DNA of 64,000 nucleotides, from positions 434,001-498,000 of the forward strand of contig JAUPFP010000025.1 of assembly GCA_036925085.1 (NCBI GenBank). The letters run 5' to 3'. The DNA is from Brachycybe producta. Its lineage: Eukaryota > Arthropoda > Diplopoda > Playtdesmida > Andrognathidae. Positions within the stretch are counted from its first letter, which is position 1; each line of letters starts with the position of its first letter. Positions 2,406 to 64,000 of the stretch are shown here, piece after piece. A program made the position numbers and the translations under genes. Below the pieces are notes generated by a model. The model was not told the origin of the DNA. It made no database searches and was given only the letters and a program-made list of their open reading frames with translations.

Positions 2406-5400
2406 ATGGACAAAGTTGATGACGGCGGATCTTCCGATTCCATCGCTACCAATGAAGAGTTCGAAATAGTAAATCCTCAAGCGATCGTCTGTGGATCGAG
2501 TGCGATCGAACCTGAACTGATCATAGGGGGTAACGGAAGTGTCGAGGATTTAAAACAGAACCTTCAGGAGGTGTTATCATTCGATTCGAGTGGAGATTCT
2601 GGTTCGAAGAAGGGACAGAACATCGTCGTAAGGGCGAAAACCAAATCAAAGATGCCGACTGGACTCGAGAATAAATGTCGAGCAGATTCGATGGATGAAC
2701 AAGGAGCTCAGGATGGAGCTATGAGTCCGGGAGATGACTCGAAGAAAGGTTTCGTATCGTATCATTGTAGAAAACGTTCATCATCAGTTTTCATGATTAT
2801 TTTCGCTTACAGGGTCTCGCGTGCAACGTCTAAGTTTGCCGATCGTGTCGCCGGGAAGCGAATCGAAGGTTTTCAGTTGTGTTTTTTATCTGGGATCTGC
2901 GAGCATCAACGCACCTCGTAGTCAGACCGAGATACAGCGTAATATGGGTATCTTGAACGAACAGTCTTCGGAACATGCCATAGAAGTAACGCTCGCAATA
3001 CCGAGCACTTCGGAAGGAAAAGTCGTGTAAGTTTTGCTTTTAACGTAGTTTTGAAGTGTAAACTTCCCTCAAACTCAGATTATTTGGTTTTTTAGAAACA
3101 AAATTATGAAGAAATTGAATGTGTTTTAGAAACTAGAAAAGCCTTCTAGTTTCTAAAACGCTTTCTACTTTGTCGCAAATTTCCTCATTTGAAACACGGA
3201 ATAATCAAGAGTTAAGAAAAGAAGTTTGAAAAGTTACGGTTGAAATTTGAAAAAAAAAAGATCAAGTTTCTTCTTTCTTTTGCTTCCACAACATGCTTTT
3301 TCACATTCTTAAAGTAATCGCTGTTTCCGTCGTTTTAAGGCTTTACGAAAAGGCGACAAACACCGAGATTACGTCCTTCAAGATACATCGAATCATTTTC
3401 TGCGCTCGTGGTCTTCAAGATACGAACGAAACTTCGTGTTTCGCTTTCACTTGTAGCCACGGATCGTCGGCCGAGACAGCCATTTTTCAGTGCCACGTAT
3501 TCAGATGCGATCAGTCCGAAGATGTATATGTTTATTATACGTTTTTCTCTCTTTATAGTTTCGTGTGTTTTCAATTGTTCGTTTCATTTGCGTTTTTAGG
3601 TTGCGCGTATTCTGCTCGCGTTCTCGGTCGCTTTCAGTCGTGTGCCTCAGTCTCTAGTTGACAGCAGTCGTTCGGACGGTCTTAACGAGGAGGTTTACAC
3701 GTTGGAAGTTACTTTAGAGATGAAGGAAGAAGACATAAAGGTCTTTATTTTTCTTTACTTCTAATTCAGGAACGGCATTAAGAAGAAATTGAAAGTGTTT
3801 TAGAAACTAGAAGGGTAGCTTAATCAATTAATTAGAGTAAATTCATGTTGATATCTTTTAAAACAAGCGTTTTCTGTGAGTTTGAAAAATTGAGTGAAAA
3901 CTAAGTCTAAAATGTCAAGAATATTTTTTTGTGTTAAACGAGATCGGACCGAAAATATATTTTGTTTTATTTATTTTCACGATTAACGGTTTTCACTGAT
4001 GGATTGTTACTTATCTAGTTTCTAAAACGCTTTCAGATTTCTTTTGCAACTTCGAACAACCAGATTTCTTTCAAGTGTTTTTGAATCCGTAATTTTTCAC
4101 AATCAGGGAAATTTTAACAGCTGTCCGAAAGATAAAAACTACTTCAAGTTACGTTGTAATTGGCCTCGTAAGGTCTGCATTTCTGTTCAGCAAGTTTGCA
4201 ACAACCGAGAACTCATTATCGAAAGGTTTTCACAACTATTTTACTGGTTGTTTCGCTACAGGATTATATATAATATGGTACTTATTTAGGTGTTTCGGTC
4301 TTCTGGTTACTCCTGGTCGTAACGTGCGACAAGGAGACATGCAGTTGCTAGAAGCGGTTGCCATGACGACCGTCGTCGGAGAACGTAAGGTCTACAGCAT
4401 CGTTGGCAATTGGGATCCGACCGATCCTAATTTCGAGGTTCTAAACACGGAAACGCCAAAAGGTTGACACAAATATGTTCTTTACGTAGTTGAATGCTCG
4501 TTATTTACTTAACTAACTTATCTGTTTTCGTAGACACGAGGGTTTATATGACGGTTGCTGTCGATTTAGTCATCGAAGGCATTCAGGAACCGGTTCGTTT
4601 CATAGTTGAAACAAAAGCAAAGTTATTTTCGCAGAACGAACGTTTCTGGTACTTCAGTAAGAAGACGTTAACCGAACAGTTCTACTTAAAACTCAGAGAG
4701 GTTTTCGCTTTAAAAAACATTTATGGTGGTTTTTTTTTAGTCGTGACTTTGTTTTGTTGATGAAATTTAATCTTAAAGGTCGAGTCAAAGTGCAAAGAAA
4801 GTCCGAGGTACGAAGTGGCTGGTGTCGAATGTGCGGGTGAAGTTGAACACAAGAAGCCAGGACTTTTGATGAATTTGAGAAATCCATTGACTAATTGGCA
4901 GACGATGCTTTCTCCGGGTGATCAAGACGAAGAATCAGGTTTGTTTCGGGATGTTTTTTTGTCAACATATGCTAATCATTGTAATCAATAATGCTCGAAA
5001 ATTTCTAGCAACAATGTTTTCACCTCTTTTTAAGGAAAATTACATTGTTGCGTAATTTGAAAACATTTTCCCATCGATTTTCACAAAAAAGGACTTTGAG
5101 CAAAAAGCACATCGTTTTTCTTGGGATAATTTTATCATTTCGTAATTTGACAATATTTTGTTTTGCAATTTTTAATTTTAACTAATTTTAATTTTAACGA
5201 AAAGTTAATTTTTTTTAGAAATTTGAACAGAAAATTAAACTTATTTAGAATTTTGAAAAAAAAGTACAACATTTTTTATAAATTTGAAGAAAAAGGTGCA
5301 TTTTTTTTTAGAAACTCTTAAATTATACAAATATACAATTTTAACACAAATTTACGATTTTCTTTAGAAATTTGAATAAAAATATGAAAATCCATATGAA

Positions 5401-8400
5401 TTTTAGAAAAAAGGGTCAATTTATTTTATAAATTTGAATAAAAAGTCTAAAATTGTCATGAATTTGAACAAAAATGTAAAATTATTTAGGAATTTGATCA
5501 CAAAAGTTACAATTGGTTAGAAATTTGAAAATTTCTAATTATAATACATTTTAAAAATAAAAACTTAAGTGAAGATTTTCACAAGATTTACAAGCAATAA
5601 TAAAATAAATATTATTTGTTGATGTTTTCGTTTAGATAACGATGAACCTCTTCTTAGCGGATCGGGTGAAGTGAGCAAAGATTGTAGTGAAGTCGAATTA
5701 GAGAGTTGGGCGGACGTTTTAGCAAAATGGAGACTAAACATGAAACAGAGACCTCGTCAGCTGACTCCACTCGTTCACAAAGGAATTCCCGAAGCTTTAA
5801 GAGGCGAAGTTTGGCTTCTCTTAGCCGGTTGTCACGAAGATGGAGAAAAACTCCTCGATACGTACAGAGTCCTCATCACAAAGGTTTTTTTAAAAATTGA
5901 TTCTTATTCTATATCGAAATAGCAGTTTCGACTATGATATTTCAAACGATATTTTTTGCAGGAATCTCCTTGCGAGCAGGTCATTCAAAGGGACATCAAT
6001 CGTACTTTTCCGGCGCACGATTTCTTTAAAGAAACCGGTGGTTTAGGCCAAGATTCACTTTATAAGATTAGCAAAGTGAGTCACTTTGTTATGAGTGCCG
6101 GACTCTTTTATTTTTATCGTACATTTTGAATGTTTCAGGCTTATTCGATCTACGACGAGGAAGTCGGTTATTGTCAGGGATTGTCTTTCTTAGCTGCTGC
6201 TCTCCTTCTACACGTAAAATCTGCATTTTGAAAAATCTCGTTCGTAGCCTCGAAATAATCTCTCTTTTCTCTTTCAGATGCCTGAAGAACAAGCGTTTAG
6301 TGTTCTCGTCAAAGTGATGTTCGACTATCAGTTACGAGATCTTTTCAAAGATGATTTCGAGACTTTACATTTGAAGTTTTATCAGTTGGAACATCTGATA
6401 CAGGATCATTTACCAGATCTTTACGATCACTTTCAAGAGTTGGCCGTTGAGGCTCACATGTTCGGTTCTCAGTGGTTTTTAACACTGTTTACGGCGAAGT
6501 TTCCTCTTTTCTTGGTTTTTCATATTTTGGATGTCTTCCTGTGTGAAGTTCGTTTTTATTTTTATTTTAATGAAAATTATCGAGTTGTTGAAACTTTTTG
6601 TCTAATGTTCTGTTTTCGATTGTTGTTTTTAATTTTCTAAAGGGAGTCGACACAATATTTCAAGTTTCGTTGGCTCTTCTAATGGTTTGTTTCTATTTGA
6701 ACGGACTTCGAAAAATGTTTTTAAGATCGTTAATGAACAGCTGATTTTTGAATTCTGATTATTGTTGCCTTTTCAGAAGAGCAAAATTATGAGAAACTAA
6801 CTAGAAACTGGTTTAGAAACTAGAAGGGTAGCTCACTCACTTAATTATTATTTTAAAGTTGATATCTTTTAAAATGGTTTATGAATAGCTGATTTTTGAA
6901 TTCTGATTACTCTTGTCTTTTCAGAAGAGAAAAATTAAGATACAGCTAGAAAATCTTTTTATAAACTAGACGGGTAGCTCGATCACTTAAGGGTATTTTC
7001 ATGTTTGATATATCTTTCAAAGTAAACTTTTTTAGAGACAGAAGTTAGTGTCTATTGAAACTAAAATAAAAAGCTTATTTTCAAAGATAGCGTCATAAAA
7101 ATACTCTTAACTGATTGAGCTATCCTTCTAGTTTCTAAAAACATTTCAATTTTTTCTTCGTTTTGCACACGAAAGACAAAATAATTAAGATTTACAGAGG
7201 CGTTTACACTTTAAAACGGCCTTAAAATAAACTTTTTTTTGTCAGCTTGAAAAGAATTCAACTTCAAGCAAAATGATATTTTCTAAGAGATTCAGTTTTA
7301 GAGATGGAAATTTAAAACTAAAGTCTAAACAGACTTGGCTGGATCATTTCCAAACTGACAAAAAAGCTTATTTTGAAAGATATCAACATAAAAATACCCT
7401 TAAAATAATTGAGCTACGCTTCTAGTTTCTAAAACACTGAAGTTTCTCAAATACATTAAAGTTTTTCTCAGTTTTGCTCCTGAACAACGGACTGATCAGA
7501 GTTCGAGGGGCACTTAACAATTTAAATTAATGTTTATAGATGTCCAAGAAAGATCTTCTGGCATTAGATTTCGAAGGCGTTCTGAAATACTTTCGAGTTT
7601 CTCTTCCAAAGAAGTATCGATCGGAGGAAGTTGCGAGACAACTGATGCGAAACGCAGTCAACATCAAGGTTATTGTCACCATTCGCACGGTTGTCTTCTA
7701 TGGTTGCCTTTGTTCCATTTGCGGTTTTTTCTTACACGAACAGATCAAGAAGCTTAAAAAATACGAGAAAGATTACATTACGATGAAAGAACAGGAACGG
7801 CAGCAGGAAGATCCAGTGAAAAGATTAACTGTAAACCGACGTTTTGATTGAAATTTCTATCTGTTTGCGTTGTTTTTTTCATTCAGTTTGTTTCTTTTAA
7901 GAGGGAAAACAAGCAGCTAATGCAAGCAAATTTGCGTTTGGAGCAAGAGAACGACGACCTCGCTTATGAACTAGTCACGAGTAAAATCGAGTTGAGGAAG
8001 AATCTTGACGAGGTTTGCTTTGTTCAGCTTTTGTTAAGAGCATAGTGACACTTGAGAGTTGCATGTTGCCATGAGTTGTAGTTAATTTGTCGGTTTCAAA
8101 GTTACTAAAATGTTTCTAGCAACCAAACGGCAATTTGAAATGTGATGAAATTACCTTAATACCTGAAGAACATATTAAGGAATACACACAATTTTTCTTA
8201 AAGCTCAAAAGATGTTCCCGAAGAACTCCAGGTTGTTGGCAGAATGGACCTTTTTGAGCGAAATGACCTTTGAAAATAAAAACCCGTTTTGAATATTACA
8301 ACCAAAAGACCTGAAAACCTAACCACAGCATTAAAGAAACGATTGCAACTTCAATTATTGTTCAAAATTGCTGTTTGAAGAGAGAGTTGTTGTTAGAATC

Positions 8401-63814: not shown

Positions 63815-63849
63815 GTCAGTTAAATTAACGTTTCTCTGCGCACTTTCTG

Positions 63850-64000
63850 CGTTTCAGAAGAGCAACACTAAGAATGGTAGCTGAATCACTTAATTGTATT
63901 TTCATGTTGAAATCTTTTAAAATAAACTTTTTATAGACACAAATTAAAAAACCTTGTCTTGCTTAATGTTGGTTCATTTTCAAACTGACACAAAAAGTTT
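63850..64000. mobile_element. F1 element truncated by the window edge (UBR4 intron 53)
   Basis: TTTCAGAAGAGCAACACTAA, GGTAGCTGAATCACTTAATT, ATCTTTTAAAATAAACTTTT, ACTGACACAAAAAGTTT at the right edge; the right arm would lie outside. Confidence 0.7.

Follow-up and report, generated by a model that had tools for sequence, protein, structure and literature searches.

A TTAA-bordered foldback family with two distinct ends, abundant in the genome of Brachycybe producta

We analyzed a window of 64,000 bases (C25:434001-498000) from the Brachycybe producta genome, which comprises 295.3 Mb in 442 contigs, and observed a dispersed TTAA-bordered foldback family, here named F1, to which much of its foldback DNA belongs. 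F1 is a new family and is unusually abundant; the kind of element, a TTAA foldback miniature inverted-repeat transposable element (MITE), is already known. We consider it probable that F1 is an old, very abundant foldback MITE that was inserted at TTAA by a trans-acting transposase, most likely of the Kolobok superfamily. The anatomy of the element, its abundance in sampled stretches, its TTAA borders, one empty site, the polarity of its two tip types (T1 and T2) and the mosaic arms on its 3' side were observed directly. A complete copy runs TTAA, T1 end, arm, core (asymmetric, about 55 bp), inverted arm, T2 end and TTAA.

The F1 arm profile had 156 positions and was built from 108 arms in loci L001-L038 (L009 being part of the window). 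Matches in the window were counted at E<=1e-3, with the reversed window as a control. The forward sequence gave 69 F1 arms covering 7,813 of the 64,000 bases (12%) and the reversed control gave 0, establishing that the dispersed foldback family reported in the first-pass annotation is real. The arms fall into 33 clusters spread from 3045 to 63934; 23 pairs are convergent (+,-), and another 23 arms stand alone. The number of copies had been put at about 40, a figure that applies if fragments are counted but not to copies as such.

A whole-genome search, which had been proposed earlier, also supported the family. The exact word TTAAGGTGGTTTT, seen three times in the window, occurred 2,758 times genome-wide (1,396+1,362), as against 69 times (28+41) for the reversed word. 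A DNA query taken from a window copy (48270-48641) gave 7,540 first-look candidates in the genome, 40 of which were scored. We further estimated the abundance from 20 stretches of 3 kb (L041-L060) at round-number positions chosen before inspection; this sample is not strictly random, because four stretches were on C1 and all 17 contigs were already among the matches of the window-copy search. Twelve of the 20 stretches were positive, and they contained 43 arms covering 4,390 of 60,000 bases, while the reversed control gave none. Extrapolated to the genome, the F1 share is 7.3% (bootstrap 3.8-11.5%) and the total is about 212,000 arm matches (113,000-325,000). The copy number genome-wide would be around 100,000. 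Should the density seen in the sample hold throughout, a single miniature element would make up several percent of a 295-Mb genome, which is comparable to the most abundant MITEs. F1 is thus short, has terminal inverted repeats and is present in many copies (making up about 7% of the 60-kb sample), as is characteristic of MITEs and foldback elements. It would be advisable to mask F1 during annotation.

The arms had been described as very long, and they measured about 155 bp. Window copies with both ends were about 300-390 bp, composites aside. The asymmetric core between the arms itself contains a TTAA. The copies had also been called near-palindromes. The foldback structure is present, but the copies are decayed palindromes, because the two arms of one copy are on average only about 79% alike. 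The identity was 79.2% within a copy (60 of 83 pairs compared, a few of them from duplicate loci) and 78.0% between copies; this excess is small, and homogenization of arms within a copy was not taken up. Arms diverge from the consensus by about 17% (K2P 0.19 in the window, n=59, and 0.196 in the sample, n=37). These values fit an old burst from a master with near-identical arms, the copies decaying independently afterwards, and F1 is presumably inactive today. Single strands of three window copies folded at -157.2, -96.0 and -111.2 kcal/mol, compared with -71.6, -59.8 and -64.4 kcal/mol for shuffled sequences (30 simple shuffles each). The small size and the frequent indels suggest that F1 lacks coding capacity; stray open frames of at least 110 aa overlap some copies, e.g. 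at 27144-27479. Among 240 arms with an inner end, the opposite arm was nearby in 185 and not in 55. Solo half-elements as a mobile unit were not taken up, as many of these 55 unpaired arms still continue into the core.

The borders were evaluated in L001-L008, L010-L038 and the window, using arms that aligned to within 3 bases of the tip. TTAA was exactly adjacent in 43 of the 61 tip-aligned arms (about 6 of which, by our reading, were fetched with a TTAA-containing pattern), while other offsets were seen 0-4 times each. Both ends could be placed in 58 copies, a few of them duplicate loci, by a routine that moves a predicted end onto any TTAA close by; 18 of these copies had TTAA on both sides. 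The corresponding number in the window was 3 of 13. An end of the form GGTGGTTTT inside TTAA on both sides, as claimed earlier, therefore holds as a consensus, but the exact 13-mer occurs only three times in the window and two-sided TTAA is seen in just those 3 of 13 copies.

The cluster at 6737..7221 (arms ++-) contains an F1 copy, 6873-7221, that lies within another F1 copy and has TTAA on both sides. When its flanks were joined with a single TTAA, the joined sequence matched many F1 arms across the junction. This is a paralogous empty site with a 4-bp TTAA duplication, and provides one case of the duplication at a precise empty site by which the family was to be judged. We also used a pattern for tips within the core TTAA, which found six genomic places (controls 0). 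The F1 core was lacking on the left side in three of these candidate self-insertions (L084, L085 and L087) and, by our reading, present on the left in the other three (L086, L088 and L089). In two of the latter, among them L088, the expected host half was missing on the right, and in L089 the host core was rearranged, again by our reading. L086 shows F1 half units (tip, arm and half core) head to tail, joined at the core TTAA. The target duplication expected of a MITE was thus seen at 6873-7221, and the six further candidates gave none. Together, the borders, the nested empty site and the density in the sampled stretches back the earlier description of a very successful TTAA-targeting family.

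Tips were called by aligning the outermost 60 bases of each arm, which gave 89 arms with T1, 54 with T2 and 55 unclear. When copies were oriented by their core, the left tip was mostly T1 and the right tip mostly T2. The tip pairs were taken from 72 copies, of which 22 were fetched blind to F1, 42 through a T1-T1 copy and 8 through a T1 tip. Nine were set aside because their cores gave no clear orientation, and in another 17 one or both tips could not be called clearly. The 46 copies left were T1-T2 in 24 cases, T2-T1 in 2, T1-T1 in 15 and T2-T2 in 5 (24 versus 2, binomial p=1.0e-5). The blind-fetched subset gave 6, 0, 2 and 4, respectively (p=0.03). Genome-wide, the exact T2 word accompanied the 3' core word in 49 cases and the 5' core word in 13, with 0 in the controls; as the core words may differ in conservation, these T2 counts by themselves are weak support. 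For the most part, T1 marks the left end and T2 the right end of a single element. The two arm versions of the first-pass annotation thus exist as two tip types, but are mainly two ends rather than two versions. The word TTTATGAACAGCTGATTTTT that had been given for one of them has no exact occurrence in the window, while the T2 tip that it describes is present in decayed form. Apart from F1, a 35-bp tandem array at 16949-17325 (10.8 copies, the unit including TTTAAGGGGGTTTAAAG) has one copy reading TTTAAGGTGGTTTAAAG, which resembles the T1 tip.

We then considered the copies with two like tips. The largest differences between 5'-side T1 and 3'-side T2 arms were at profile columns 147, 54 and 73 (p values uncorrected). 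At column 147, which is next to the core, A was found in 15 of 16 3'-side T1 arms and 33 of 35 3'-side T2 arms, while 5'-side T1 arms had G in 23 of 40 (Fisher 3.9e-5). Nearer the tip the 3'-side T1 arms leaned towards T1, with T in 9/16 as against 5/36 at column 54 (p=0.005) and in 12/16 as against 12/36 at column 73 (p=0.007). The mirror case, T2 on 5'-side arms, is too small at 7 arms to decide the matter. As the core-side base is 3'-like and the tip-side bases are T1-leaning, the 3'-side T1 arms look like chimeras; it seems that an exchange with its breakpoint in the arm, in a folded copy or from one copy to another, carried T1 to that side. The near-identity of the inverted arms would make such swapping of ends possible, sometimes producing T1-T1 and T2-T2 copies.

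The inner palindrome may also multiply head to tail. In L039, five inner units lie head to tail between one TTAA-bordered tip pair, with the cores in the same orientation by our reading. Several window clusters hold more than two arms; nesting and tandem growth are lumped together in these. We tentatively propose that F1 has a fixed polarity (T1, core, T2), yet its inverted arms allow one end to be copied onto the other, giving a built-in exchange of the predicted transposase-binding ends and a means of seeding tandem arrays. If this is true, F1 would offer a natural setting, with very many copies, in which to follow end-swapping among TTAA transposons. Through its polar, swappable ends, exchanges between arms could be counted, in numbers large enough for statistics.

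It is also possible, if short of probable, that copies with two like tips (T1-T1 or T2-T2) form separate subfamilies, descended from masters of their own, rather than being products of repeated end swaps. T1-T1 copies are common (15 of the 46 for which the orientation and both tips were called), and some may therefore descend from one swapped master; 11 of these 15 come from loci fetched with the T1-T1 query. Against this, the A near the core in 15/16 3'-side T1 arms, together with their T1-leaning bases near the tip, indicates that at least the master was a mosaic, and the left and right tips were not associated (Fisher p=1.0).

As to the superfamily, the portion of PMC9587614 available to us describes Kolobok elements as having TTAA duplications and 5'-RR and YY-3' termini, unlike piggyBac. 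The corresponding part of PMC6004289 gives them a TTAA target and an RR terminal sequence. The consensus termini of F1 are GG for T1 (GGTGG) and GA for T2 (GATGG), in keeping with 5'-RR/YY-3', and the duplication at the empty site is the 4-bp TTAA of Kolobok. The suggestion that a GG start suits Kolobok at least as well as piggyBac was upheld, both by this RR rule, as far as PMC9587614 was available, and by the piggyBac loci of this genome, which start with CC. Kolobok thus appears to be the best-fitting class for F1, with the parent unproven. In the mechanism that we favor, a TTAA-specific transposase, most likely Kolobok, would be supplied in trans and would recognize the GG/GA ends. F1 would be inserted at TTAA with duplication of the TTAA, and would move through excision and insertion.

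We searched the genome with the transposase profiles PF13843 (piggyBac), PF05485 (THAP) and PF20700. PF20700 gave 53 matches, several with long open frames. The protein at L083 has 961 aa and carries PF20700 and YqaJ; it is probably KolobokE-like, as it matches the description of KolobokE in PMC9587614, the relevant part of which gives this group a transposase together with a lambda-exonuclease-like nuclease. Two KolobokE-like genes lie 29,069 bp apart on C134 (L083, L090, L091), with flanks 91% identical in the left piece and 99.8% in the right, a pair that could be a recent duplication or one very large element. In a third KolobokE-like copy, L092, homology persists to the right edge of the piece. 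The ends of these elements are not defined, because the element exceeds the pieces taken and the C134 copies lie in a longer duplicated stretch.

Several observations weigh against a Kolobok-mobilized, TTAA-inserted F1. The transposase sharing the F1 tips that had been expected was not found, nor was any autonomous element sharing them. The F1 tip word was not found in L083 or L092, where the pieces stop short of the element ends, and none of the 12 loci fetched from the 106 THAP matches was recognized as Kolobok. Four of these 12 loci (L072, L074, L076 and L080) had one F1-type tip word each, and none had a pair. TTAA was absent on both sides in 11 of the 58 copies with both ends placed and one-sided in 29. 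There is a single clean empty site, and a second simple one was not found among the six candidate self-insertions fetched. The tandem-repeat finder reads 6719-7011 as two 148-bp units, which means that tandem duplication must be weighed for the left part of that site; insertion is favored because the host arm, interrupted at the left flank, continues from the same point in the right flank, unlike in a simple duplication. Two candidate autonomous elements between distant T1 tips on C1 were also rejected: the first, of 2.1 kb, consisted of nested F1 sequence with inner units in tandem, and the second, of 7.3 kb, had no recognized transposase. Among the THAP loci, three P-element-like transposase loci by our reading (L075, L076 and L077), on different contigs, were 99.8-99.95% identical over about 2 kb. 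The identity starts at about position 1250, and may reflect recent movement or duplicate assembly.

The failure to find a parent in the PF13843, PF05485 and PF20700 searches leaves some room for mobilization by another TTAA-using superfamily, of which Sola3 is an example, or by an undescribed one; we regard this as unlikely, since the Kolobok rules fit F1 without strain. It is more doubtful still that F1 is a MITE mobilized by piggyBac, with ends differing from the piggyBac copies seen. The genome has 93 piggyBac transposase matches, several with long open frames, and F1 shares the TTAA target. However, among 10 fetched piggyBac loci (some of them copies of one family), TTAACC-type words were present at both ends in 8 and at one end in 2 (ends printed for 4), and the F1 tip word was found in none. 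F1 ends in GG/GA rather than the CC type, and RR termini mark the divide between Kolobok and piggyBac in the available part of PMC9587614. A piggyBac parent was thus ruled out on end sequence for the 10 loci fetched of the 93 matches. One of the piggyBac copies, L065, has flanks that repeat the same approximately 20 bp beyond the TTAA, as if it lay inside a tandem satellite. That F1 itself is a dispersed satellite and not a transposon is very improbable: the tandem inner units (L039) and half-units (L086) would suit it, but the tips are constant with adjoining TTAA, the flanks are not alignable and one insertion is nested.

Classical Foldback (FB) elements have arms composed of internal short tandem repeats, and Galileo, judging from its target size, is not a TTAA element. 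piggyBac and its MITEs share the TTAA target with F1, while the ends of the copies fetched here start with CC. The Xenopus T2-MITEs (Kolobok; Xmix and Xstir), as presented in the part of PMC6004289 available, resemble F1 in their TTAA target, purine-purine end, abundance and age. Their tips differ, reading AGGRR where F1 has GGTGG or GATGG, and in Xmix an internal segment was amplified into tandem repeats, like the F1 inner units. KolobokE and KolobokP share with F1 the TTAA duplication and 5'-RR..YY-3' ends, within the same portion of PMC9587614. KolobokE has a DDE and an exonuclease-like domain, and a similar protein is present in this genome, while F1 has no evident coding part. In KolobokP the long terminal repeats are direct, whereas those of F1 are inverted. 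Galileo (P superfamily, Foldback-like) has long inverted arms as F1 does, and in the text of PMC3573991 that we could draw on, these average 668 bp, compared with about 155 bp in F1. That text also describes tandem repeats inside the arms of one subfamily, as F1 has tandem inner units, and suggests active sequence exchange among Galileo copies, mainly in the arms. Our literature search recognized no description of F1, although a published repeat library may contain it.

Within the window, full copies were located at 48275..48637 (T1-T1, in the UBR4 gene region, the source of the genome query), at 52863..53209 (T1-T2, with TTAA at either border) and at 61464..61767 (T1-T1 and nearly coreless, by profile and tip calls). 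The profile together with tip calls also gave T1-T2 foldback copies at 11637..11975 and 50223..50544, and T2-T2 copies at 9035..9331, 57523..57864 and 59104..59421. A further T2-T2 copy, with one weak tip, is at 51429..51753 and carries AGAAGAGCAACACTAAG. The copy at 28649..29141 has an exact TTAAGGTGGTTTT tip, is T1-T2 with weak core orientation and includes an extra arm. The arm at 15650..15808 (+) also has the exact TTAAGGTGGTTTT tip, its opposite arm not being above threshold, and the lone arm at 63849..63934 (+) carries AGAAGAGCAACACTAAG; both were located by word search and profile. A fragment with a T2 tip lies at 49589..49645 (+), by tip search and profile.

The remaining features were called with the arm profile. 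They include foldback copies at 3045..3215 (an arm pair, outer arms only), 40622..40819 (right arm truncated) and 55604..55794, and clusters of 5 arms at 27041..27783 and of 6 arms at 30138..31139. Smaller groups are at 7361..7526 (--, minus strand), 29318..29654 and 46538..46889 (both -+-), 35316..35675 and 41744..42045 (both +--), and 54181..54533 (++-). Lone arms are at 3762..3874, 40330..40431 and 60441..60528 on the plus strand and at 21705..21832 and 25705..25826 on the minus strand, the last beside a different foldback element. An inner arm is at 41510..41602 (-), and arm fragments are at 4006..4064 (-) and 20680..20766 (+).

Pfam matches in the window marked UBR4-like exons (PF19423, 44.1-44.6 kb; zf-UBR, 54.6-55.0 kb) and a RabGAP-TBC exon (6.2-6.6 kb). 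Many F1 copies lie around the open frames of the UBR4-like gene (44000-64000). By our reading, those at 55604 and 60441 start within the last bases of open frames, after possible GT splice donors. The different foldback element, at 25038-25702, has 155-bp arms that are 95% complementary and adjoins the F1 fragment there. A second short inverted-repeat family, with arms 88-97% complementary, is present at 18369-18464, 21151-21479 and 35072-35162, and similar sequence adjoins a T1 tip in L087. The minus-strand open frame at 18855-19310 encodes 151 aa and had no Pfam match; with its signal-peptide-like start and C-terminal ...QPLRWG, we read it as a possible amidated neuropeptide. A 33-bp tandem repeat at 36695-37577 is open in several frames, one of them reading HEHEHAHMHKE.

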